Below are positions 14,983 through 29,874 of a DNA stretch of 64,000 nt, in pieces. A program made the translations under genes and the position numbers. A model generated the notes under the pieces. It had not been told where the DNA came from. It made no database searches and saw only the letters and a program-made list of their open reading frames with translations. Each line of letters starts with the position of its first letter. Within the stretch, counting starts at the first letter, position 1. Source of the stretch: Bacteroidota bacterium (GTDB lineage Bacteria; Bacteroidota; Ignavibacteria; Ignavibacteriales; Ignavibacteriaceae); assembly GCA_022562275.1 (NCBI GenBank), contig JADFPP010000002.1, forward strand, positions 1 through 64,000, read 5' to 3'.

Positions 14983-15168
14983 TTAATTGAATTGTTGTTT
15001 GTGAGATTGCTCCCAGCACCAGGGACAAATATTATTCCCATCCGGTACCAGTTCATCCCAGGGATCAATGGGGCAAGTACATTTGGAATTTTTGAGCCCC
15101 ACTTCTTCTTTCATTATGAATGGATATTTCTCTTCTTTTTCCTTTTTTTCTTCTTTATTATCACTCAT
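14983..15168 (-). CDS. small Cys-rich (zinc-ribbon-like) protein
   Basis: A 61-residue protein with a highly charged N-terminus (KEEKKEKEEK) and four cysteines arranged CxC (30, 32) and CPWC (48, 51), a plausible metal knuckle. It is followed 13 bases later by the membrane protein gene at 14724-14969. A structured element copy lies 67 bases upstream of its ATG. An alternative is that the two ORFs are one gene split by a frameshift, giving a soluble metal-binding head on a two-helix membrane anchor. Confidence 0.5.
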   Translation of the reverse strand: MSDNKEEKKEKEEKYPFIMKEEVGLKNSKCTCPIDPWDELVPDGNNICPWCWEQSHKQQFN

Positions 15169-15234
15169 TTTGTCTACATATAAAGAGCTAATAAGAACAA
15201 GTATAGTACCATTAACAAAATTTTAATTATAATA

Positions 15235-15321
15235 CCCCTGCCATCAAATGAAGCTAATGGAATGGGTTTAGCTTCAATAGCTATGGAGGCGACAGCAGGG
15301 GCTCCCCCCTCTTTCGAGGAG
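15235..15321 (-). ncRNA. undescribed structured element, copy 2
   Basis: Same order as copy 1 on the minus strand: CCTCGAAAGAGG hairpin (15308-15319), then cccctgc (complement at 15295-15301) pairing with gcagggg (complement at 15235-15241). The enclosed hairpin tgaagcta/tagcttca (15249-15256 with 15269-15276) has eight pairs and is unrelated in sequence to that of copy 1. The conserved single strand between the two stems reads GTCGCCTCC here and GTCTCCCCTC in copy 1. No T-run follows. It lies in the presumed 5' leader of the Cys-rich gene. Confidence 0.5.
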
Positions 15322-15402
15322 ATAATTATATTCAATTTCTATTTGTGGATTAAGAGGATTTGTTTAGCTCTGTGAAATTAAATATTCAAACAGTGTAAGT
15401 AT

Positions 15403-15531
15403 TTAATCCATTATCTCTGTTATGATTTTTTCTTTAGTAACTTTGGTTTTAACAGCCCATTTATAATCATCGACAGAGATTGACGATCCTTTCAAAATTA
15501 ATGTAATTATTCTTTGTCTATATGTTAATAA
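15403..15531 (-). other. short open fragment, possible gene relic
   Basis: A minus-strand frame of about 43 codons reads LTYRQRIITLILKGSSIS then VDDYKWAVKTKVTKEKIITEIMD before a stop at 15403-15405. Its residue use looks coding, but only a TTG could start it and there is no clear ribosome site. It may be the tail of the decayed gene at 15631-16009. No function can be assigned. Confidence 0.3.
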
Positions 15532-15630
15532 TAACAATTAGTATGCCAAATCTTCACTTTGTTAGTTATGATTAACACACAAGTATTTTTCCATCAATAC
15601 CAATTTTAATCTCAATTCCAAGTAAATAAA

Positions 15631-16009
15631 TCACTTTCTTAACTCATTGCTGTCTTTAAACTTTATCAATAATCCATTTACATTTATTCTTTCCGGAATA
15701 AATTTTATAGTTACTTGTTCAAGAAAAAGATTTAATGATTTATCATGTTCCAAGAGCTTTATATTCTTCGGAAGGATTTTTTCATTTATCCACTTGAGTT
15801 GGTTTTGCATCAGAATCTTCTCTTCAGCTTGTCTTTTAAATCCAAACTGAACCTTAAAAGAATTTTATTACTTCTGATTCGATCTTTGATTTCATAGAAA
15901 TGTTTTTTTTGCTTTCCGTAGTATCAATGTAGCAAAGGTGGTAATAACCGTTTTTGTATTGGTTCAGCGGGAAATGGAATTTCCTTATTAATAAATAAGG
16001 GTAAAAATG
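15631..16009 (-). pseudogene. decayed gene with integrase-like N-terminal arm, cut by IS3 element
   Basis: Running out of the IS on the minus strand, translation gives FHFPLNQYKNGYYHLCYID then TTESKKNISMKSKIESEVIK. This resembles the arm-type DNA-binding domain at the N-terminus of phage/ICE tyrosine recombinases (KNG-YY-L-Y-D then ST-T-K-S-E-KF). A stop and a shift at about 15854 lead to a second frame, VQFGFKRQAEEKILMQNQ and onwards, ending NELRK at 15631; a further shift would continue as VIYLLGIEIKIGIDGKILV. No catalytic Arg/Tyr domain is seen. The integrase assignment is tentative. Confidence 0.45.
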
Positions 16010-16028
16010 TGTCAATTTTCTTAAATAA

Positions 16029-16931
16029 TTAGGATACATTTTTCACCTCGTAACGTACTTTTTTAGCTGACTGCAATTTAACATTTCTAATATTAATTTT
16101 CTCATCAATTCTGTTCATTAAAAAATCTTCCGGGGTTAAGTAGAACAAAGCTCTATGTAATCGTTTAGTGTTGTAATAATCAACAAACTCAGCAATTTGT
16201 TTTCTGGCATCTTCAAGATCAATAAGAGAATTGGTGCTCAAACATTCTTCGTTGACGGTTCTGTGATATCGTTCAATCTTCCCATTACTCTGAGGATAAG
16301 CAACTGATGTTCTGATATGCAGCAGACCAGCTTGCTTGATAAATTCAGCAAAGTCTCTTGAGATAAATTGTGAACCGTTATCAGTGATAAGTCTGGGTTT
16401 AGCAGTAGGATATTTCTCTAAGGCAGATTGAATAGTAAACTGAACATCAAATTCTTGCATACTCATTCTGAGTTCATGATGAACAATAAAACGAGAGTAA
16501 CCATCAATAACAGAAATAAGGAATAAGAATGTCCCACGAAAATTCACATATTTGATATCAGTATGCCAATGCTGATGCGGAGCTGTTGGATGGTCAAATC
16601 CTTTTCCTTTAGATGATGTTTTGGTTTTATTCCAACGATTTAACAACTCAACTGATTTTAGTACCCTATAAGTAGTTGATGGACTTACAGAGACTATATT
16701 ATCATCAATCATCATATAAGTTAATCTTCTGTAACCTTCGTTAAGATTAGTTTGAGCATATTTAATAATAGCTTCTTTTTCCCAATCAAGTATCCGGTGT
16801 TTCTTTGGAAGAACACCATTATGATGATTTGGCTGTTCATATCGAGTTATCCAAGAATAATATTTACTTGAACTTATGCCAATCATACCAATAAGTTTAT
16901 TGGCTGGCGTATTTGTTTTAATTGTCATCAT
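16029..16931 (-). CDS. IS3-family transposase OrfB (DDE integrase)
   Basis: Retroviral-type rve integrase domain with the DDE catalytic residues in HWHTDIKYV (first Asp), LITDNGSQF (second Asp) and QSNGKIERYHR (Glu). An HTH_21-type region (EGYRRLTYMMIDD) precedes it. The frame continues upstream of the first ATG as YSWRELNAKWVEPDVRDNIV, back to about 17024, showing that OrfB is normally made as an OrfAB fusion by -1 slippage on the A8G run. The catalytic part appears intact, but the fusion partner orfA is broken, so transposition in cis is doubtful. Confidence 0.88.
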   Translation of the reverse strand: MMTIKTNTPANKLIGMIGISSSKYYSWITRYEQPNHHNGVLPKKHRILDWEKEAIIKYAQTNLNEGYRRLTYMMIDDNIVSVSPSTTYRVLKSVELLNRWNKTKTSSKGKGFDHPTAPHQHWHTDIKYVNFRGTFLFLISVIDGYSRFIVHHELRMSMQEFDVQFTIQSALEKYPTAKPRLITDNGSQFISRDFAEFIKQAGLLHIRTSVAYPQSNGKIERYHRTVNEECLSTNSLIDLEDARKQIAEFVDYYNTKRLHRALFYLTPEDFLMNRIDEKINIRNVKLQSAKKVRYEVKNVS

Positions 16932-16984
16932 TTTAGTAAACTCAACAATGTTATCTCGAACGTCCGGTTCAACCCATTTGGCAT

Positions 16985-17327
16985 TCAGTTCTCTCCAGCT
17001 ATACTTTTTTTTATACTGATGTTTTCACGAATCAGATAACTGATCGCTTCGTCACGATCTCTTAACTTTGCTTGTAGTTTTTCTACTTTCTTTTGCTCTG
17101 AAGTAGTTTGTTTGGCGGTTGAATTATTTGGACCGAAAATATCTACTGCCGATTCGAATAGTTTTTTCTTCCAGCTCGTCTTGGCAGACGAAGTCTGACC
17201 GATTGTAAATATCATTAGGGCGAACTTCATACTTTTCGCAAAGTTGACTTATCGGAACATTATTCTCTAACAGTTCACGTAAGATTTTTGTTTTTTGTTC
17301 GGCTGTGTAATGTTTTCTTTGTCGCAT
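16985..17327 (-). pseudogene. IS3-family OrfA, disrupted by a 28-base insertion
   Basis: The N-terminal part MRQRKHYTAEQKTKILRELL...VRPNDIYN is a standard HTH_Tnp_1 domain, and WKKKLFESAVDIF...LRDRDEAISYLIREN is the leucine-zipper tail of the same protein in another frame. Between them sits a 28-base segment (17174-17201) containing the palindrome cagac-gaa-gtctg. Removing it restores IYN-WKKKLF exactly, so the segment is a later insertion that breaks the frame. The zipper ends IKKSIAGEN just past the slippery run. Confidence 0.85.
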
Positions 17328-17377
17328 TGAGAACTCCTTTTTTTACACTATGGTAAATTTAAGAAATTCCTTTTCCA

Positions 17378-17866
17378 TCTGAGGCTTTACATTATCATCT
17401 TAATATGCTTTATCATCTAACGAATAAACAATTCGATAAAGACCCTTACACAAGTGTAATGGATATACCAGAGGTAAGACCAATCTTAAAATTGGTATGC
17501 CTAATTGCTATCAATTCTCGAAATAAAAGTCAGGCACTTCGGGCTATAAGAGAAGAAAAAAGGAAAAATCCCGAATTGGAGAAATTAAAACGAATATATC
17601 ATTTAGATGAACAAGACCTATTAAGAAAATTTGAAAGTGTTCAATTCAGAATCTCAAATTACTTTTACAGTAATTTTGGAATAAGATTACAATTCTTAGA
17701 TTCTGAAATCACCGAATCAATTTTAAAGTATTTTACTTCCAGAGAAATTCCCTGCTTAGCTGTGCACGATAGTTTTTTAGTTCCCGGAAAATATGAAGAT
17801 GAGCTCAAGGCTGTAATGAGAGGTACATACAAATCAAAATTCAAATATGATATTAAAGTTAAGTAA
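17378..17866 (+). pseudogene. C-terminal stub of a phage/ICE-type protein truncated at the IS boundary
   Basis: The ATG at 17405 is probably not a native start: the frame continues upstream to the IS edge as SEALHYHLNMLYHLTNKQF, which recalls the conserved (S)G-LH-RMLYHL of larger phage/ICE proteins with a Y-S-G-L-H motif. The stub of about 160 residues includes LDSEITESILKYFTSREIP and LAVHDSFLVPG. The VHDSF motif resembles the C-terminal palm-type motif of phage/plasmid polymerase-like proteins (VHDSV/F). The missing N-terminal half would hold the rest of the domain. I infer that the IS removed it. Confidence 0.6.
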
Positions 17867-17876
17867 GGAAATTAAA

Positions 17877-18062
17877 ATGAAAGATTATCTAACGCCTATT
17901 AAAGCAATACGAAAAAACTGCCTACAATGTTCCGATGGAAGTGTTAAAGAAGTGAGAGAATGTATTATTATAGATTGTCCATTTTATGATTTCAGATTAG
18001 GTAAAAATCCCCGAAGGAAAGGAATAAATCAAAGGAAGAGAGTTGTTGATAAAAATGCTTAG
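17877..18062 (+). CDS. small Cys-rich phage/ICE-type protein
   Basis: A 61-residue protein with ATG at 17877 and a TAAGGAAAT ribosome site. It carries the recurrent pattern PIKAIRKNCLQCSDGS, then VRECIIIDCPFYDFRLGKNP, with Cys at C-x2-C and C-x5-C, likely a zinc-binding knuckle. Proteins with this pattern are common small genes of prophages and conjugative elements in many phyla; their role is unknown. It follows the truncated stub by 10 bases and supports an integrated-element origin for this stretch. The open frame extends to 17847 without support. Confidence 0.7.
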   Translation: MKDYLTPIKAIRKNCLQCSDGSVKEVRECIIIDCPFYDFRLGKNPRRKGINQRKRVVDKNA

Positions 18063-18135
18063 TTGAGTCGGGAGTTTTTACCAAAAATCGAAAGTTAAAG
18101 ATGAAATTCAACTGGGATATTTTTAATTTCGTTTT

Positions 18136-19034
18136 ATGGAATTATACAAATATACTTCTGTACAAAATGGTATTAATATTCTTACAAATCTTGAAATCAG
18201 ATTTACACAACCAAATGCTTTGAATGATGTTTTTGAAATGTTCCCACACTTGCTGACGGATATTTCAGATGAAGTATTTGAATTGTTGTTTAAGGATTTA
18301 GAAAGTAGTGGAAATATAGAAGAATTGTGGGAGAATGCATTAGATGATTTTTATAAATCGATGGCAAAAAAATATCCTTATATTTTTGGAAACAAAGAGG
18401 TTGCTGATAATTTCCTGAAAAAATTATTTAACGAGAGCTACTTAAAAGGTAGAGGTATTTCTGAACTGATTTTTCAATTTATAAGAGAAAATCCAGATGA
18501 CTTCCAGAAAAAGTGTATTTATCAATTTATTGAATTCATCAATTCGAATGTCGGAGTATTAAGTTTAAGCGAATTAAATAGTGATAATAGACTTTGGGGT
18601 AATTATGCTAACTCCCATTCAGGCGTTGTCATTTGCTTTGATAAATCACATCCTTTTTTCAGGATATAAAGAAAGTGATATATGTTGAAAATAGAGAGGC
18701 AGTAAAATTGAATGATATTATACTTGGAAAATCTAATTCACATATAAGAGATGTATTTTATACAAAGAGCAAAGATTGGGAATATGAAAAAGAGTATAGG
18801 AAATTTGGATTCTTTAACTTTGCAAAACGAAAATTAGAGAATAATGATTCGCTTGGTTATCTAATTTTTTTATTCGGAATACCTAAAGACGCAATAACAG
18901 GAATAATTTTGGGAAGGAAAATAAAACAGAATGATGAGGATGAAATAAGACAAATAATCAAGAGAGACAACTATAACATTTATACTAAACAAGCTATAAT
19001 TAGCACAAGTGATTATAAAATTATAATTAGGTAG
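18136..19034 (+). pseudogene. DUF2971 protein gene with a single frameshift
   Basis: Two adjacent frames, 18136-18669 and 18675-19034, together make one DUF2971 protein of about 300 residues. The first carries MELYKYTS...LEIRFTQPNALNDVFE and LWGNYANSHSGVVICFD, the family hallmarks. The second carries FYTKSKDWEYEKEYRKFGF and IILGRKI. The break is at HPFFRI-stop. Adding one T to the run of six Ts at about 18653-18658 restores HPFFQDIKKVIYVE and reads through. The lesion could be a real inactivation or a homopolymer error. The family is of unknown function, often near mobile or defence genes. Confidence 0.8.
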
Positions 19035-19210
19035 CATGCATATTTAATAAAATCTTATTCTATTCTTATGCTATTGTAGTGTTATAAGGGGGTTAATGAA
19101 GTGTTCAATTAGCCAATGTTAAGGAAAAAAGATTAGAATTGAGAGTGCTCAAAATAGCCTCAAATTTTGCATAAAATAATAAACAAATCCCAATTTATCA
19201 AATTCTATGA

Positions 19211-19222
19211 TTTCAGTCCATT
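19211..19222 (+). other. possible attachment-site core matching tRNA-Phe
   Basis: tttcagtccatt at 19211-19222 is identical to 22151-22162, which covers the anticodon loop and 3' arm of the tRNA-Phe gene, in the same orientation. The surrounding bases (atgatttcagtccatt against atggattttcagtccatt) are also similar. tRNA anticodon regions are known integration sites. The 2.9 kb between the copies holds a T9SS cargo gene and a small ORF but no integrase. Confidence 0.35.
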
Positions 19223-19378
19223 TTCAAAGATTATTTTAACTGGTATGTAAAAACCTACTAAAGCCAAACTCACAAAAAGAACCTACCCGGTCTGTTCATA
19301 CCCCCTTATTTTACTTTAAAATTAGTGAATCGGTGCAAGTCTTTATTTTACTTATATTTAAATAACACCACAATACAC

Positions 19379-19660
19379 CGTAACTCTTTATATAACAATG
19401 GGTTAAAATGGAGGTTTATTGACAGGCAGAAAGGCTCAATATTATTTAAAGGTTTGGGAATGCTGTAAACCCTTAATTTACAATAAGTTAGAATTGGGGT
19501 GTTTGGGGCTTGTGAGGGCTCTATTATATATAAATCCTCAACTCTCTGTAAATCCTTATAAATCAATGGGTTAGCAGGGGGGGGGTTGTAGGAAGGAAAG
19601 GCTCTATTTTATATTAATGCTAATATCTCTGTAAGTCCTTATACTACAATAAGTTAAAAA
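19379..19660. repeat. degenerate 83-84 bp tandem repeat
   Basis: Units begin at 19379, 19463, 19546 and 19629 with related heads: cgtaactctttatataacaa, ctgtaaacccttaatttaca, ctgtaaatccttataaatca and ctgtaagtccttatactaca. Each is followed by a (t/a)gggtta or aagtta box, and in the full units by a G-rich run and gg(g/c)ctc(t/a)at. Three full units and one partial unit are present. Units differ at many positions, so the array is old. No coding role. Confidence 0.75.
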
Positions 19661-19681
19661 TCAGTTTTTGATAATGAAAAT

Positions 19682-19711
19682 CCCCTGCCAACTTTAATTG
19701 ATATGGGCTTA
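19682..19711 (-). ncRNA. partial copy of the structured element
   Basis: On the minus strand this 30-base piece reads AAGCCCATATCAATTAAAG then TTGGCAGGGG, matching the 3' half of copy 2 (AAACCCATTCCATTA ... GGCAGGGG). The CGAAAG hairpin and the 5' strand of the closing stem are absent, so it cannot form the full fold. It lies about 20 bases after the stop of the T9SS cargo gene. Confidence 0.35.
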
Positions 19712-19731
19712 AATAAAATCATATAACATTG

Positions 19732-20928
19732 CTACTTCATCAACACCATCTTCTTAGTTTCAACAAAATCACCTGCTTGAAGTTTGTAGAAAAAGATGCC
19801 ACTTGGTAAAGTTGTTGCATCAAACTCAACTGTATAACTACCCACTGAGTTTTCTTTGTTAACAAGAGTAGCAATTTCATTTCCTAAAACATCATAAACT
19901 TTAAGTGTAACAAAACTTAATTCTGGAACTGAATAACTGATTGTCGTCAATGGATTGAATGGATTGGGATAATTTTGTGATAGTAAAAAGTTTTCTGGCA
20001 GTTCATGTTGTTCCTCTCTTGCACCAGTAGTATTTCCACCTTTATCTACACTATCAGGAATACTGTGGAATTTGAAATCGGTATCCTTGTTAACCTTTAT
20101 CTCTTTAGCACTGATACTTCCACTGAATATCACTTCTTTCTTCATTACCACTTTAGCTTCCGGAGCTATAAATGAACCAAGTATTTTACTTCCTTTTTCG
20201 AAGATTATCTTTTTGGCATCAAGAATATTAAATGTTAAAAATCTGCTTCTCCGATTCCTCAGGATTTTTATTTCTGTTTCTTTCTTGAAATTTAGTTTTT
20301 TAACTATATTTATAACCGTTGGACCAAACAAATTCACTGTTAATACTGCTTTTTCATTAAGCTTTAATTCATTGAAAAAATATTTACCTGTCGCTAAGTG
20401 CAACTTAGCATTCTTTTTAACATTAACTTTGTTATAAGACCCGGGAACTAAAAAACGTCTCCTATTTTGTTCGACAGTTATATCTTCTCCTCCGGCAGTG
20501 AAGGATAGCGTTGGTAATGGGATTTCTGATACATTTGAGAATTCGGTAACTGTTCCGATAATAACAGAGTTTCTCCCCACTTTAATTTTATTCCCAGATT
20601 TTACATTGCCGATAATAAAGTTATCCTTTTTTATTTCTATCTTACCTATAGAAGTTAGATTACCTATATGTCTACCTTGGCTGCCTTTTTTAAATTTTAT
20701 TCTACCATTTGAATGAATATCCCCACTTGTAGAAGACAATCTTCTTTCAATCTCAATTTTTTTATCAGCAAGAAATACATGGCGTGATTCAAAAGATAGA
20801 ACATCATTTCTACTTTCATCATACGCATTTTCATTTAGTGGATAATATGCAACTAAACCGTTTGTTGGTTGTGCAAAATTAATTGTAGCAATGATAGTAA
20901 CTAGAAAAAATTTAAAAAGTAATTTCAT
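19732..20928 (-). CDS. secreted protein with LamG-like start, beta-helix-like middle and T9SS sorting domain
   Basis: A 398-residue exported protein. Residues 1-18 are a signal peptide ending FAQ. A short NGLVAYYPLNENAYDES piece is the opening of a LamG-like domain that then stops. Residues 40-290 contain repeated strands around Gly-Lys-Ile patterns (SNGRIKFKKGS, TSIGKIEIKK, SGNKIKVGRNSVIIGTV, FSGSISAKEIKVNK) suggesting a polymer-forming beta-helix. The last 80 residues are a type A T9SS domain, NYPNPFNPLTTISYSVPE to KKMVLMK, directing outer-membrane secretion. The ATG at 20928 has a TTGGAGGG ribosome site; a structured leader precedes it. The LamG part looks replaced or truncated. Confidence 0.85.
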   Translation of the reverse strand: MKLLFKFFLVTIIATINFAQPTNGLVAYYPLNENAYDESRNDVLSFESRHVFLADKKIEIERRLSSTSGDIHSNGRIKFKKGSQGRHIGNLTSIGKIEIKKDNFIIGNVKSGNKIKVGRNSVIIGTVTEFSNVSEIPLPTLSFTAGGEDITVEQNRRRFLVPGSYNKVNVKKNAKLHLATGKYFFNELKLNEKAVLTVNLFGPTVINIVKKLNFKKETEIKILRNRRSRFLTFNILDAKKIIFEKGSKILGSFIAPEAKVVMKKEVIFSGSISAKEIKVNKDTDFKFHSIPDSVDKGGNTTGAREEQHELPENFLLSQNYPNPFNPLTTISYSVPELSFVTLKVYDVLGNEIATLVNKENSVGSYTVEFDATTLPSGIFFYKLQAGDFVETKKMVLMK

Positions 20929-20998
20929 AATACCCTCCAATAATGAAATTTATGTAATACACAAATTAATTATGTGTTATTATTCTTTCTCAGATAAA

Positions 20999-21070
20999 TG
21001 GATTTAATTTGGGTGGCCTCCCCGCATACCTTATTACTCACACCAAGGAAGTCTCTTGGTTAAACCCTCG
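20999..21070 (-). promoter_or_regulatory. structured 5' leader of the T9SS cargo gene, riboswitch-like
   Basis: On the minus strand, GGGTTTAA (21061-21068) can pair with TTAAATCC (21000-21007, one G-U). Inside lie an ACCAAG/CTTGGT hairpin with a short loop (about 21043-21060), an unpaired GTGAGTAATAAGG strand, and GGGGAGGCCACCC, which can fold as a small stem. The layout of two arms meeting at a purine-rich junction resembles aptamers, but it fits no class I can name. It ends about 70 bases before the ATG. Confidence 0.4.
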
Positions 21071-21271
21071 TTCGTAAACTACTCATAGTTGTTAAAAGAA
21101 ACAATGATTTTTTGTTTTTTATTAATAATGTTTAGTTCTGTTCGTCTCTTTTTAATACAGTTCACATATATATAATTAAAATTTACCCTCACGGAAAATT
21201 ATTCGCACAATAGCAAGAAAACCATATTATAAAATTTTGTTCGAGATTGGATGCTGGCTTTCCACTTGCAA

Positions 21272-21301
21272 CCCCCACCCTTCATTTTAAGGGTGTAGGG
21301 G
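21272..21301. repeat. strong GC-rich hairpin
   Basis: cccccaccctt and aagggtgtagggg form a stem with a six-pair inner part (accctt/aagggt, loop cattt) and an outer C4/G4 part with a small bulge. It lies between the T9SS cargo leader and the 77-residue ORF and could end transcription of the latter (which ends at 21379), though no T-run follows. Confidence 0.45.
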
Positions 21302-21378
21302 AGTCAATCAGGTCGAAAATTCTTTTCATTTTTTAGGTTGAAAATCTCTCTCAAGTCCCTTCATCTCTTTCTCTGTTT

Positions 21379-21612
21379 TCATCCTTCTCCTCCAATTTCA
21401 GAATGTTCTGCATTATAATCATCTTCATCATATTCTTTTAATAGTTTTTCTGCTTTCTCTCGCCAGATTTTTGCAAATGCATCCAGAAATTTTTCTTTAT
21501 CTTCCATTCTGATGATAATGTCACAAGCTTCTTTGCCAATATCATATTCCGTGTGGCAAAAATATTCTTCTTGATATAATTCATCTAAATCTATTCGAAA
21601 TTTTTTATTCAT
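21379..21612 (-). CDS. hypothetical acidic protein
   Basis: A 77-residue, strongly acidic, probably helical and soluble protein (EEYFCHTEYDIGKEACDII then MEDKEKFLDAFAKIW). Composition is coding-like and the ATG is preceded by AGGATTTTTAAG, a weak ribosome site. No family recognised. It may belong to the element bounded by the possible att core and tRNA-Phe. Confidence 0.5.
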   Translation of the reverse strand: MNKKFRIDLDELYQEEYFCHTEYDIGKEACDIIIRMEDKEKFLDAFAKIWREKAEKLLKEYDEDDYNAEHSEIGGEG

Positions 21613-21854
21613 CTTAAAAATCCTATATACTTTTTATTTGATGTTAAACTTTGCTCCTATTAAAGTTCAATCCATACTTATGAGATTTAATTTAACATTT
21701 ACTTATAAATTGTCAAGGTATAATATAATAATATGTGGATATATGAGAATTTCAAAAAAAATTTATCGCTATAAACTTTTTAAAAATATCGACTTAAAAA
21801 GACGTGACAAATTGTCTCTTGACTTTACGGTTAAAAATGTTTTATTAGTAGTTG

Positions 21855-21954
21855 GATTCAGTAAGGTAAGAATAAATAAATGAAATTTGATTGAGAAAGC
21901 CTGAACAGTATTTTGGGAACTTACCTTCCCTGAATCTATTACTGTTTGGGCTTT
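21855..21954. promoter_or_regulatory. nested, mutually exclusive inverted repeats
   Basis: Arms 21896-21910 (aaagcctgaacagta) and 21940-21954 (tactgtttgggcttt) pair over 13-14 of 15 positions, enclosing a smaller ggga/tccc hairpin. In addition 21855-21870 (gattcagtaaggtaag) is nearly complementary to 21920-21936 (cttaccttccctgaatc), which would disrupt the inner hairpin. Such alternative pairing is typical of attenuators or small regulatory RNAs. On the plus strand the outer stem is followed by tt-ct only. No gene clearly starts after it. Confidence 0.45.
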
Positions 21955-22073
21955 TCTCGTTAGAAGCTCTTTGAATTTTTGATTAGTCAAGAAGTGATGA
22001 CACTTTTGCTGACCAAACTCTGATTTTATGTCATCATTTAGTCAGCAATTTCGTTTTCGTCTAAAGTCTTCAA

Positions 22074-22110
22074 ATTAAAAAAGTGCGACTGTTGGTATTA
22101 ATCGCACTTT
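22074..22110 (-). terminator. intrinsic terminator of tRNA-Phe
   Basis: On the minus strand AAAGTGCGA (22102-22110) pairs perfectly with TCGCACTTT (22080-22088) around a 13-base loop and is followed by TTTTTT-like sequence (22074-22079). It begins 5 bases after the tRNA end. Confidence 0.85.
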
Positions 22111-22114
22111 GGTG

Positions 22115-22187
22115 TGGGCAGAGACGGAATTGAACCGCCGACACATGGATTTTCAGTCCATTGCTCTACCAACTGAGCTATCTGCCC
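22115..22187 (-). tRNA. tRNA-Phe (GAA)
   Basis: A 73-base cloverleaf on the minus strand: acceptor GGGCAGA/TCTGCCC, D-arm GCTC AGTTGGTAGAGC, anticodon stem ATGGA/TCCAT with loop CTGAAAA giving anticodon GAA, and T-arm with GGTTCAATTCC. Discriminator A at 22115; CCA is not encoded. An intrinsic terminator follows directly. Its anticodon region is repeated at 19211-19222. Confidence 0.97.
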
Positions 22188-24150: not shown

Positions 24151-27100
24151 CTACCGGACCCGTGCAAGTTTTTGTGTTACAGTTTTAGTTTCCTCAGGAA
24201 ACTTTGCCGAAACTTTGTAAAGATATACACCATTAGCCACTTCGTCACCATCCTGGTCTTTTCCATCCCAATATATCTTGTTGAAACCAACATTAAGATC
24301 TAATGCAGAAATATCAACATCGCGTATAAGCCTTCCTGCTATAGTATAAATTTTAATTTTTACTTTTTCCGGAAGCTCTGAACCCTGAAGTAAAAAAGTA
24401 AAATACGTATCTTTTGAGAATGGATTCGGGTAGTTATAAACTTCAGTCAAATCAAATTCATTAAACACAAAAAACGACGTACGTGAAGATGTTGAATCGA
24501 AAAAATTACCGGATGCATCCTTAGCTAAAATCTCAAGCGTGTGTTTTCCATCCGGTAATTCAGGAGTCCAGTGAATTTCCGATTTAGAATTAGGATACGA
24601 TGTATATTCATAACTTAATTCCGGTTGAGTAAAATACAATGGAACATTATTATACACAATAGTGAAAAAACTTGTGTCCAGGGGTAAAGGACTGTTATCT
24701 TCAAGTAATATCATAACATCTGGTTTTGCCGAAACAATATCACCGTTAATAATCTCCTTCCCATCAAATGTAATCGAAAAGATAGGTCTGACAGAATCTC
24801 TTGCTACAAAAAATTGATTTTCAATTAAATTATCAAAACTAAAATATTCTAATTGATCTGTGGTACCAAATGCACGTATTTCATTCTCAAATAATAGATG
24901 ATCAGATTCAATAATATATGAGATGTTTTCCGAAATAGAATCCGCAGGTATGCTTACAACTTTGGAGTAGATCGCTGAATCCAATCCATTAAGAAAGAAT
25001 TTTATATTTAAGCTATCTATATTAGTCTCGCCAAAATTCCGGGCTTTGAAATTCATTGTTACAGGAAATCCCTGTAAAATTGAATCTGGTGAGAACTGTA
25101 AATCATTTTTAACAAACATAACATTCGGTAGTTCCTGGTATTCAATATTAACACTTTTTAGTTCGATTGGAGAGGTGCTAGTGAAGCTTGAATCGGTTAG
25201 TGTAAAATCAATCTGTAATTTGGGATATTCTTTTGCAATTACATCTGTTAGTGAATACGGAGTTTGTAAATTTTCCTTGATCATATCCCATAGTTTGGTT
25301 GTACTATTAAAACCAAAAAGATTGGCACTGTATTCTCCGGTTGGATTTGGATTTAATAAATCAAAAGATAAACTCTTCCACCAGGCAACGGGTCCTACCG
25401 GCGTTGTAATAATAGAACCACTTGCATCAATATAATTACCAAAAAATGTTGAGATTTTAGGTTCAAAACCAGATGCACGATATACTCCTGCAGAAACAGT
25501 ATTATTCACCCAATCACTGCACCAGGAATAATAACTCTCAAACTCACTTCTAACATGCCACTCTTCCTCAAAAAATCCGTCACTTATTCTAATTCTCCTT
25601 ATCGTATTGGAGAAAAAGCTTTCCACCGGATAAAAATAATCACCAAAAACAAAGAAACCAACAACTTGTTCAAAACTCTCCCCGGGTGGATGAAGATCCG
25701 TACCCACCATAGAAAAACCATTTGCCGGATCAAATGTTCTTAATGTGTATTTTCGATTTCCCAGTGAATCTATTGATGCTAAATTATAAATATACTCTCC
25801 GTCTGAAGTAAGATAATAAGACCCAACTCCAACTGTCCCGGTATCCCATTTAAGTAAACCATCAGGAACCTCAACAGTATCTATTACCTCAGTAGATACT
25901 TTTATTCTTGTCAATTCATATGGATTTCCAGTAGCTACATATATATAACCATCGCTATGATATACAATTGAATTTTCAATATCATCATAAAAATTTGAGA
26001 ACGGCCCATCAAATTTGCCTTTTACAGTACCATTATTACCTGTTCCTACTCTGTATATTGCAGATTTACCATTAGCAAAGAATTTTAAATTACCAAAATA
26101 AAAGTATGAGCCATCAGTTGTTAAAGTTGTTAATTTCAAACTATCGGGTAACGAAGGCTGCGGGTAAATATCTTCCAGGAAAGTATTATCAAACGGTCTG
26201 GCAGGAAGTAATTCTGTATTTAAACTTAAACTTTGTGCAGAGTCGGAGTAATTAATATTATAAGATGTAAAGGTTTTTAATATTTTACCGTGAGCATAAT
26301 ATCCGGATTTTTCATTACTACTAATAGAAAAACTCCTCAAAGCACTCCAGTTGCCAAATTCGCTCCCATCAAAAATTCTTGCCCGCCAAAAATATGTTCC
26401 TTGTGGAAGATCAGAACTTTGCCATTCAACCAGTGCATTTTCTGATGTTAACATCCCGCTGCTCATTATCGGGTTTTCAAATCCCAGAGAAGTATCAATT
26501 TCTATAGAGTATGAGAGGTTTTTATTTATATACTTTCCTACATCTGAAAAAGCAAATTTTATTTTGGATAAAGACGTTGAAAATCCATCAATAGGTTTAA
26601 GAATATTTGGTTCGCTGATATTAAATACTACAAAGAATTGTGATGCAATGTTATCGGAATGATCTTCTTCAATAATAATTTCAGTTTCATTAACTTTAGC
26701 CGTAAGTTCATACAAATTCCCAATCGATGGGATCCATGAAAATATAACCGAATCTTTATCTCCAAAATTAGAAAGCTTTTCAGATCCTGCTAAGAAATTT
26801 GTATCGGCTGAACTAATATATAACTCAACAACAACTGAATCATCAGGAAATATTCTGCCTAAATTATTAATATTTATTTTTACTGAAACAGTATCATTCA
26901 CTATCGGATTTTCCGGTGAGAGTGTGATATCGGCGGAACTAACTGCAAAATCCGGAAATTTGGGCAGAATAATTTCCATTGCCGGATCACCAAGATAAAC
27001 TAACAAAGCTATTTGTGTACCGAATAAACCAGTTGCAGATACTTGATTTTTAGAATTAAGTATAGCTTTTCCAATTATCAAATTATTTTTGGTGAGTATT

Positions 27101-29874
27101 TCGGTAAAAAGTTTGTTATTTATTGATTTACCAATTCCCCAATAGGTTAGCCCGGTACTCCCATAAAATCCTATACTCCCTTTATTTTCTACAAGATTAA
27201 ACTGCTCACCAAAAACCTTTTGATTATCAAAATGTGCTGTGTAGCAAGTAACACTTAATATAACTGGAAGTCTTCCGCCATTTTCCAGTAAATAAATATC
27301 ATCATTGGTAAATACAAGGTCCCATTGTAAACCACCTCCGTGCCCATAATAATTAACCAAAGCGGCACCTTTGCTTATCTCCTCCCTCATCTCAATTTGC
27401 CCTCCTTCATACGGAAAATGCCGTGGTTGGGTTGCAAAATTAAATACATAAGAAGCATTATAACCATACGCCGTTACAAATGTATCGCCTAACAGTAAAC
27501 TTGCATTGTTAAAATTAAAACTGTTCTCGTCTTTAACGCTAAGCCCTGAAGCAAGCAGCAGAACATTTTCCTTCCATGCTTTTGCATTATCGTCAGGATA
27601 TTTTATTAATTTATCAACTAATAAATTGGCTTCATCCAATGTTTCACAGGAAAGCCTGCCAATTGCTAAATCCGGAGTTATATCCTCACCAGCCACAGCA
27701 ACAAACATATTATCACTGATTGCTTGTCCATATATAAATACAAAAATCGGGATTGATGGGATAAAATTCCGGTCACTATCTTCTAATAATCCGCGGTAGT
27801 CATAACTCATATCTCCCATTAACACGATATAGGATGGGGCGGGACTTTGCCAATTATCAAACGCATATTTAATAAAGTACTGTAATGCAAATGGGTCTAA
27901 TAATCCATAAGAAAATTCATCATAAATCTGCATAACATCAACTATTTTTATTCTGACATTAACGATATCCGGATCCGGGAAATAACCGGATCTAAATTGT
28001 GCTAAATCCTCTGCAGCAGCAATAAATTCCGGATGCGTAATAATTATATAGTCGGCTCCATTTGACATATCCCTTAAAGTGGAAGGTTGATCTTGAACAA
28101 TAGAATCTACCGATAAGTAGTAATCATCTGAGACACAATAATATTCAGTTCCTATATCGGTAGTATCTACAAAAAGAACAGAATTAAACTGATCGTTGAT
28201 TATGCTGGCATTTGAAATCATTTTATTCCTTTCGGGAATATAGATCTTCATATTATTTCTCAACCATCCAAAAGTCCAAAATCTTATATTTCCAGATACA
28301 TGGCTCTTGAAAATAAAATTATCCGGATTGGTTTTTAGATTCCTCCAATATTCAAATTCGTACCAATTAATTCTTATTTCATCGTTCTCCACCAGTTCAC
28401 AAATTTGACCCCGTACCCAAACATTAAGCCTATTACCTGTAGGGAAAATCCTTATACTATCTTCAGAAATGTAAAAGTTCTTTTCAAATAATGCTTGTTC
28501 CTGTCCATCCCAAATTATATCACCTACAAACTGATCGGTAAGATAAACTTCAGCTTTATGATCAGTATCACAATATCGGCTGGCAGTCATACCGTGCATT
28601 TTAACCCGTAGTGTAACATAAGCCGAATCTAAGTTTCTTTTAGGGAATTCATTAAACCGGTCTTCAAAACCAAAAACAGCTTGCCTGTTCTGGGCAGTTG
28701 CTCTTCCCCATAACCAGAAGTCATTCTCAGGCGTAGCAGAAAGTCCCAGTCTTTCATAGAGAGAATCTTTTTCAAAATGAATAGTATGACGGGTAGTTGT
28801 AAAGGTTTGATCATAATTCGGCGGATTGGGAAGCCCATCTATATCATTATAATTATTTCCGGTAGAATCACTTTCGTACGAGAACCAATAAACATTACTT
28901 AGATTGTAAATATTCATATACGCATAAGGGCTTGGAGATAAAGCGGAGCCTACAAATTGTAAATAATCAGATGCATTGAAAAGAGTATCACCGTTTGCAT
29001 CTACAATATCCAGAGGAATTGATTTTCCTTCATTGAAAAGTTCTATTTTATTTATTGGTGTATTTGAACCCAGTGGTGCTCCTGCAGCAATTAACTCATT
29101 ATAGGTAACCCTGTAAACACCTTTGTCTTTAATAAAAAATTTAAAATAGTTTTTATTAGGATTATACCAATACCCCCCCCCAATCTGCGGGGAATCACCC
29201 CCCAAAACCGGCTTACTGATCCAGTTCTTTGCTTCATTTACATTCAGCACAGCACTTTCTAAATAACTTTTGCTCATTGCATCAGTTACCTGTGTTCTGT
29301 TACCCAAAGCGTTTGAATTAAAATAAATTCTTACTAAAATTTTTTTGTTAAAAATTAATTGACGTGTAACAGGATTGAATTGATATGCTGACACACTTAT
29401 CGGTAATATCCTTGTATATCTATAAATATAAGATGAGCCTAATTCTACATTTTCAGATGGGAATAATTTGTTTGCCGAATAAATTTCTTTATTAATATTT
29501 TTCATATCCGGTTTTTCAAATATTGGATCGGTTTCCGGATAGGGTACAATGAATTTATTATTGTACGAAATTTTATCATTACGAAGGACCTTGAATGTTG
29601 GTTTTGAATTATGAGGAATTCCAATACTAATATTTACCATGGGCAGCCATGGATCACCCGGATTTCGAAAATAATTTTCATCACCTCCTATTTTACTATA
29701 TTTTATTCCGTCAATAAGAGTATCAACCAGGTTATACGAACCCCTAAAATCAAATTCAAGAATAATATGATCCAATGTGGATTCAATAACTTTAATATTT
29801 TGCGCAAAGGATGATGAAAAGGAAATGAAGACAATAATGTACAGAAGTGACCATAACCTGAAATTTGAATACAT
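24151..29874 (-). CDS. C25-family (gingipain-like) cysteine peptidase with CARDB-type repeats and T9SS sorting domain
   Basis: A 1907-residue secreted protein. A signal peptide spans 1-24 (ending SFAQ). A PorU-like N-terminal propeptide region and beta-rich part follow to about residue 560. The C25 peptidase domain covers roughly 600-960, with catalytic His845 in YGHGGG and Cys877 in SVTCYTAHFD, a 32-residue spacing like that of gingipains. Ig/CARDB-like repeats follow near 960-1070 and 1600-1700, with a fibronectin/propeller-like middle (FDPANGF..., GSYFYFGNLKFF). A T9SS/FlgD-like C-terminus starts at YNYPNPFSKDTYFTF. It is longer than canonical PorU (about 1100-1300) and may be either the T9SS signal peptidase or a surface protease. 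Confidence 0.88.
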   Translation of the reverse strand: MYSNFRLWSLLYIIVFISFSSSFAQNIKVIESTLDHIILEFDFRGSYNLVDTLIDGIKYSKIGGDENYFRNPGDPWLPMVNISIGIPHNSKPTFKVLRNDKISYNNKFIVPYPETDPIFEKPDMKNINKEIYSANKLFPSENVELGSSYIYRYTRILPISVSAYQFNPVTRQLIFNKKILVRIYFNSNALGNRTQVTDAMSKSYLESAVLNVNEAKNWISKPVLGGDSPQIGGGYWYNPNKNYFKFFIKDKGVYRVTYNELIAAGAPLGSNTPINKIELFNEGKSIPLDIVDANGDTLFNASDYLQFVGSALSPSPYAYMNIYNLSNVYWFSYESDSTGNNYNDIDGLPNPPNYDQTFTTTRHTIHFEKDSLYERLGLSATPENDFWLWGRATAQNRQAVFGFEDRFNEFPKRNLDSAYVTLRVKMHGMTASRYCDTDHKAEVYLTDQFVGDIIWDGQEQALFEKNFYISEDSIRIFPTGNRLNVWVRGQICELVENDEIRINWYEFEYWRNLKTNPDNFIFKSHVSGNIRFWTFGWLRNNMKIYIPERNKMISNASIINDQFNSVLFVDTTDIGTEYYCVSDDYYLSVDSIVQDQPSTLRDMSNGADYIIITHPEFIAAAEDLAQFRSGYFPDPDIVNVRIKIVDVMQIYDEFSYGLLDPFALQYFIKYAFDNWQSPAPSYIVLMGDMSYDYRGLLEDSDRNFIPSIPIFVFIYGQAISDNMFVAVAGEDITPDLAIGRLSCETLDEANLLVDKLIKYPDDNAKAWKENVLLLASGLSVKDENSFNFNNASLLLGDTFVTAYGYNASYVFNFATQPRHFPYEGGQIEMREEISKGAALVNYYGHGGGLQWDLVFTNDDIYLLENGGRLPVILSVTCYTAHFDNQKVFGEQFNLVENKGSIGFYGSTGLTYWGIGKSINNKLFTEILTKNNLIIGKAILNSKNQVSATGLFGTQIALLVYLGDPAMEIILPKFPDFAVSSADITLSPENPIVNDTVSVKININNLGRIFPDDSVVVELYISSADTNFLAGSEKLSNFGDKDSVIFSWIPSIGNLYELTAKVNETEIIIEEDHSDNIASQFFVVFNISEPNILKPIDGFSTSLSKIKFAFSDVGKYINKNLSYSIEIDTSLGFENPIMSSGMLTSENALVEWQSSDLPQGTYFWRARIFDGSEFGNWSALRSFSISSNEKSGYYAHGKILKTFTSYNINYSDSAQSLSLNTELLPARPFDNTFLEDIYPQPSLPDSLKLTTLTTDGSYFYFGNLKFFANGKSAIYRVGTGNNGTVKGKFDGPFSNFYDDIENSIVYHSDGYIYVATGNPYELTRIKVSTEVIDTVEVPDGLLKWDTGTVGVGSYYLTSDGEYIYNLASIDSLGNRKYTLRTFDPANGFSMVGTDLHPPGESFEQVVGFFVFGDYFYPVESFFSNTIRRIRISDGFFEEEWHVRSEFESYYSWCSDWVNNTVSAGVYRASGFEPKISTFFGNYIDASGSIITTPVGPVAWWKSLSFDLLNPNPTGEYSANLFGFNSTTKLWDMIKENLQTPYSLTDVIAKEYPKLQIDFTLTDSSFTSTSPIELKSVNIEYQELPNVMFVKNDLQFSPDSILQGFPVTMNFKARNFGETNIDSLNIKFFLNGLDSAIYSKVVSIPADSISENISYIIESDHLLFENEIRAFGTTDQLEYFSFDNLIENQFFVARDSVRPIFSITFDGKEIINGDIVSAKPDVMILLEDNSPLPLDTSFFTIVYNNVPLYFTQPELSYEYTSYPNSKSEIHWTPELPDGKHTLEILAKDASGNFFDSTSSRTSFFVFNEFDLTEVYNYPNPFSKDTYFTFLLQGSELPEKVKIKIYTIAGRLIRDVDISALDLNVGFNKIYWDGKDQDGDEVANGVYLYKVSAKFPEETKTVTQKLARVR

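Follow-up and report, generated by a model that had tools for sequence, protein, structure and literature searches.

The question raised by this locus is whether the stem-rich leader of a secreted-protein gene is a ligand-sensing RNA, as the initial annotation implied by calling it a riboswitch-like leader before a type IX secretion system (T9SS) gene, or an element of another kind. In the window (the whole stretch of 64,000 nucleotides that was analysed), the gene runs from 19732 to 20928 on the minus strand and encodes, from its ATG, 398 aa with a Por_Secre_tail at the C-terminus. A TIGR04183 match of 38.7 bits, where the cut-off is 23, confirmed the product as a T9SS cargo protein, and it also carries an ice-binding-like adhesive domain that falls just under cut-off (23.5 of 23.8 bits). 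All the strings named in the annotation are present on the minus strand where it had placed them: the outer-stem arms GGGTTTAA (21067-21060) and TTAAATCC (21007-21000), the hairpin arms ACCAAG (21060-21055) and CTTGGT (21047-21042), and the strings GTGAGTAATAAGG (21041-21029) and GGGGAGGCCACCC (21023-21011). On the same strand, the ribosome-site GGAGG follows about 62 nt beyond TTAAATCC. In GC content the segment does exceed its surroundings, with 0.447 over 20995-21070 compared with 0.33 in the window as a whole. Since base A21060 is common to the outer stem and to the ACCAAG/CTTGGT hairpin, the two cannot both be complete.

The annotation had found no riboswitch class that it could name for the segment, and searches against Rfam 15 bear this out. 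At the gathering score, the sole match in the window was a tRNA at 22115-22187, and over 20850-21350 an E value of up to 10 added just three sub-threshold chance matches (E 3.6 to 6). A described RNA class was therefore rejected, Rfam having given tRNA genes and sub-threshold matches only. Similarly, searches of the accessible literature on riboswitches of Ignavibacteria and of type IX secretion, and on intergenic repeats of Ignavibacteria, brought up no element of this kind. To our knowledge, gene regulation in this lineage, which the annotation suggested to be Ignavibacteria-like, has been little studied. Striking stems drawn by hand in an AT-rich leader can be due to chance, and the informative signal here is the repetition of the segment elsewhere in the genome.

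Copies in the same genome and in others

When the genome of origin (3,399,404 bases in 148 contigs) was searched by BLAST, two further copies were found (E 1e-19 and 3e-4), one on contig C29 with 80% identity over 104 query bases and one on contig C140 with 80% over 44. A 20-base core pattern, with up to three mismatches allowed, matched this genome at the three copies with 0 mismatches and at two other places with three, and its reversed control gave 3 matches in the same search. This repetition within the genome is beyond chance and was absent from the initial annotation. Rfam searches of the C29 and C140 loci (E up to 1) yielded tRNA and three sub-threshold matches, none of them over the core. 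As there are only three copies, all conservation arguments rest on three sequences.

The part kept in all of them is a 45-nt core (21025..21069, minus strand, as given on the leader strand) with 30 invariant columns. The window and C29 copies have in common a larger segment (20997..21113, minus strand; 117 aligned columns, 79% identity), and their BLAST alignment shows no continuation past either end. Because the C29 similarity runs on upstream of the outer-stem boundary, a miniature inverted-repeat element (MITE) with the two outer-stem arms as its ends was rejected. Between window and C140, the core is about 80% identical, and the flanks give no strong alignment except for a 32-column stretch at the ribosome site. 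The core holds a hairpin of 6-7 pairs (21042..21060; 7 pairs on the + strand, ACCAAGG-AAGTC-TCTTGGT) and the palindrome GGTTWAACC (21058..21066), in which the central base alone is variable among the three copies; this palindrome was noticed after the fact and is expected by chance 0.54 times per window. Dispersed intergenic copies with a palindromic core, each of the three bearing the hairpin, are what is seen in REP/MITE-like repeats. Outside the core, the alignment with C29 disclosed a small upstream hairpin, AACTA-TGAG-TAGTT (21077..21090, minus strand), of which the C29 copy has lost one pair and altered both sides of another. In addition, an inverted repeat, AATTTCAT ... GGAGGG ... ATGAAAT, surrounds the ribosome site (20922..20950, minus strand), and its exact form occurs in this genome only at the window and C140 genes (2 matches, 0 for the control). 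By eye, one frame of the + strand stays open for about 14 codons in the three copies, but no third-position bias was seen in their differences, and a protein-coding fossil was rejected.

Pairwise comparison of the C29 and C140 copies revealed a second common block, 85 nt long and containing a terminator-like hairpin (L002 1259-1345 on C29 and L003 1581-1665 on C140; 74%, E 7e-8). This block lies 150-190 nt upstream of the core, block and core being in the same order in both, and the spacer between them is no more alike than shuffled sequences (169/300 as good). Blocks that are kept while their spacer has diverged suggest constraint on the blocks. However, the argument is weakened because C140 was not returned when the whole genome was searched with the C29 block (E up to 0.01), the matches being C29 itself and 28 bases on C31 (E 0.0086).

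We built two models, R1 and R2, from the three copies, R2 representing the other strand. They recovered the window core at E 2.4e-10 and E 7.5e-13, respectively, and R2, run with filters off on the window and two longer stretches of the same genome, found the three known copies only. Elsewhere, BLAST with 106 bases matched one of 97 genomes, the own one, with no credible copy in the 96 relatives. On the same 97 genomes, with at most 64 candidates scored per genome, R1 matched four at E up to 1, the own one included. In a class sample of 391 genomes (16 candidates scored in each listed row), R1 matched two at E up to 0.05, again with the own one included and with no credible non-own copy. The non-own matches of R1 were one in genome G014 (E 0.018) and three others with E values of at least 0.58. 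R2 matched 21 of 40 genomes at E up to 2, with 24 non-own places, of which six were aligned, and the best of them were in G014 (E 0.013), on contig C19 of G004 (E 0.05), in G073 (E 0.14) and on contig C237 of G005 (E 0.16). The weak match in G014 was rejected as a copy, being inside an ORF for a 636-aa repeat protein, as were those of G004 C19 and G005 C237, also inside coding ORFs; the remaining weak matches of both models, a further G004 match (E 1.48) among them, were put down to chance on their scores. Phages gave no match and plasmids one of 21 bp only. Pattern scans of genome contigs returned 2 stretches, one of them with an R1 match (12.6 bits, E 0.34), and those of viral contigs returned 0, 0 and 7 stretches, with 0/7 matching R1 at E up to 1. 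As far as searched, the segment is private to one genome.

Folding of the copies and pairing on the two strands

The window segment (86 nt) has a minimum free energy of -16.6 kcal/mol, compared with a mean of -18.0 for its dinucleotide shuffles (z +0.45), and 134 of 200 shuffles fold at least as well. The same holds for the leader up to the gene start (149 nt; z +0.58, 140/200) and for the window 45-nt core alone (z +0.12, 110/200). Since the window fold is no better than that of shuffles, the stems of the window copy are by themselves no evidence of structure. Compared with its own shuffles, the C29 copy does somewhat better (z -1.40, 13/200), particularly in the core (z -2.19, 5/200 as good), and the C140 copy gave z -0.74 (45/200) with a core at z -0.03 (92/200). 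For longer RNAs, 9/100 shuffles were as good with C29 (381 nt, z -1.44) and 18/100 with C140 (521 nt, z -0.97). No terminator-like site was found on either strand of 20900-21500, and promoter-like matches were at chance level (3 found, 2.6 expected).

Across the three copies, the 6-pair hairpin read on the leader strand has 94.4% of its cells paired and one pair changed on both sides. With the seventh pair, this drops to 90.5% (19/21 cells), two pairs becoming A-C mismatches. On the opposite strand (the window + strand), in contrast, the 7 pairs are complete (100%, 21/21 cells), because the two changes that affect one side only yield G-U pairs on this strand, against A-C on the leader strand. 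Both of these changes would favour the opposite strand by chance one time in four. Column-shuffled alifold of the core likewise gave z -2.24 for the leader strand (13/500) and z -5.0 for the opposite one (0/500), and on two longer alignments of window and C29 the values were -0.61 and -1.86 for the leader strand and -1.43 and -1.87 for the opposite one. The letter-shuffle control failed for the core hairpin on both strands (174/500 and 166/500 on the leader strand, 165/500 on the opposite one), as well as for the window/C29 alignment with the small upstream hairpin (253/500). The hairpin is quite possibly real, and any involvement of RNA would slightly favour the opposite strand over the leader strand.

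The outer stem proposed in the annotation fares worse: C29 keeps six of its eight pairs, with two lost, and C140 offers only wobble-rich partners, up to 6 pairs. An integron attC site was also rejected, since by eye C140 alone showed an outer stem of that kind and the internal loops looked too long for what is usual in attC sites. On the leader strand, the covariation falls short of that of a new riboswitch class, in a test that three sequences make weak. A three-part aptamer is not supported.

Downstream genes and genomic surroundings

In the window, the distance from the start of the core to the ATG of the cargo gene is 141 nt. The C140 copy is placed likewise, with 265 nt between it and a downstream gene whose product has LamG and Kelch domains and what by eye is a signal peptide; this gene runs off its contig, so that any T9SS tail would lie beyond the sequence in hand. 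The C29 core is 522 nt from the contig end and the downstream gene falls outside the contig. The two copies that can be judged are therefore both upstream of a secreted-protein gene and in the same orientation. The C29 contig end (L002 1800-2098) is itself unusual, as its last 300 nt have 57-63% GC against 26-40% in the preceding 800 nt, and it may be chimeric or contaminated. In this genome, LamG (PF13385) was matched 5 times, on C15, C140 and C109 (3 places), and R2 found no core at the C15 and C109 loci, which extend just 1.5 kb past the matches and may miss the gene start. Elsewhere in the window, a 1907-aa protein (24151-29874, minus strand) resembles the T9SS sortase PorU under cut-off (297.5 of 420 bits) and matches the T9SS sorting-tail model as well (28.3 bits, cut-off 23).

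Besides the own genome, only G063 (39% identity) had a homologue of the window gene (E up to 1e-5) in a set of 59 genomes that included the own one, and only G004 (84% over 229 aa) had one of the C140 gene (E up to 1e-20) in a similar set of 94. The core is absent around both the G063 homologue and the G004 orthologue, and R1 found none anywhere in either genome. The annotation had stated that a lack of conservation upstream of homologous genes would refute its proposal, and this result goes largely against a riboswitch. In G004, a 33-base relative of the terminator-like block (E 0.03) almost adjoins the ribosome site, unlike in C140, where about 436 nt holding the core come between the two. 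The G004 orthologue also has, by eye, a shorter form of the ribosome-site inverted repeat; as it lacks the core, this repeat seems to belong to the gene and not to the core.

The gene glmS and the tRNA-Phe (22115-22187) were matched in 6/6 genomes of the genus, and the window copy is within a variable stretch beside this tRNA, on its minus-strand downstream side. When five congeners were compared with window 15000-22110 over the 1.5 kb that follow their tRNA (E up to 0.01), one match only was obtained: 15832-15960 is 71% identical over 130 aligned columns to the start of the G001 gene for a phage integrase (PF00589, 123.8 bits), which comes immediately after the tRNA in that genome. On this similarity, 15832-15960 is likely what remains of an integrase gene, at the far side of the variable stretch. 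Among the five congeners, only G003 and G004 have sequence in common in these 1.5 kb. The 22-base 3' end of the tRNA-Phe is not repeated in the window, with up to 3 mismatches, as a boundary of an island. Between the C29 copy and a tRNA-Pro 1.4 kb away lies what by eye is an integrase-like remnant interrupted by stops, and the C140 copy has a DDE transposase-like gene at a distance of about 400 nt (21.8 bits in Pfam, where the cut-off is 23). The variable stretch of the window also contains an IS3/IS481-type transposase gene (16029-16931, minus strand) with a small ORF (16985-17230) beside it. At 18136-19034 (+ strand), a frameshift seems, by eye, to have divided one protein into two adjacent ORFs in different frames, and neither has a Pfam match at E up to 0.01.

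Nature of the element

We believe, tentatively and with a probability of about 0.36, that the segment serves accessory surface-protein genes as a 5' regulatory module private to this genome, acting in cis at the DNA level. We infer its functionality and its action on DNA from three traits that led us to prefer this reading: the palindrome varies at its centre alone, it precedes secreted-protein genes and shares their orientation, and the blocks, unlike the spacer, have been kept. The 45-bp core would then act in cis upstream of accessory surface-protein genes, most likely as a DNA site for a putative dimeric regulator that would bind the GGTTWAACC palindrome and the ACCA/TGGT inverted repeat, and upstream regions duplicated within variable parts of the genome may have carried its copies along. 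Provided that the element is functional, accessory surface-protein genes would have a small control element in common. It counts against this module that the G004 congener has an orthologue of the C140 gene that does without the core. Of the initial proposal, the position before a T9SS gene, the lack of an Rfam family and, by extension, a second copy likewise placed stand, and the riboswitch identity of the segment is not supported; a site on DNA is likelier than an RNA that senses a ligand.

It is almost as probable that the copies are non-functional repeats in hypervariable regions rich in mobile elements, either short hairpin-bearing debris of REP/MITE-like type or a fragment of intergenic sequence that was duplicated. 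The integrase match, the tRNA-Pro with its integrase-like remnant and the transposase-like gene beside the copies would all be consistent with this, as would their restriction to one genome as far as searched, but neither terminal repeats nor target duplications nor clear element ends were recognised by eye in the three flanks, and uniform neutral decay would not give two kept blocks with a decayed spacer, even if the whole-genome search did not return the second block. A structured 5'-leader RNA (a riboswitch, a protein-binding leader or a translational control with a hairpin at the ribosome site) is unlikely. Such a leader would account for the co-oriented position at two secreted-protein genes, the two-sided changes in the core hairpin and, in C29, in the small upstream one, the better-than-shuffled C29 fold and the ribosome-site repeat common to the window and C140 genes. 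Nevertheless, the window and C140 folds are at chance level, the outer stem is not conserved, the leader strand has the two A-C mismatches and failed the letter-shuffle controls, neither an Rfam match nor a terminator-like site was found there, and G004 has its shorter ribosome-site repeat without the core.

A small RNA or divergent transcript from the opposite strand, with the hairpin ACCARGG-AAGUC-YYYUGGU, is quite improbable. The complete pairing and the strong core alifold score on that strand argue for it, but the pairing rests on two changes in three sequences, the letter-shuffle control failed there as well, the longer alignments with C29 gave modest z values, and neither strand has a terminator-like site. 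Less probable still is a more speculative version, in which an undescribed cis-regulatory or opposite-strand small RNA would control accessory T9SS surface proteins and move with islands in the Ignavibacteria-like lineage, its active loop being AAGUC or GACUU.

The c-di-GMP-I riboswitch (GEMM-I, which we take to be Rfam RF01051), which the segment had been said to recall only loosely, lies, like the segment, upstream of genes of surface-adhesion type and presents a hairpin followed by a purine-rich strand. The segment differs from it in that this family is absent from its cmscan matches at E up to 10. REP-like elements are short palindromic intergenic repeats with their own kind of associated transposase. 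The segment is like them in being short, hairpin-forming, intergenic and dispersed in several copies, and differs from them in having three copies only, with conserved non-palindromic flanks. The element is new to Rfam, but a private intergenic repeat of three copies is nothing unusual. Operator sites of dimeric transcription regulators form a general kind of DNA site and, although the conserved stretch is here longer (45 bp) than a single typical site and the regulator is putative only, the segment resembles them in its palindrome with a variable centre and in its position upstream of genes that have the same orientation.
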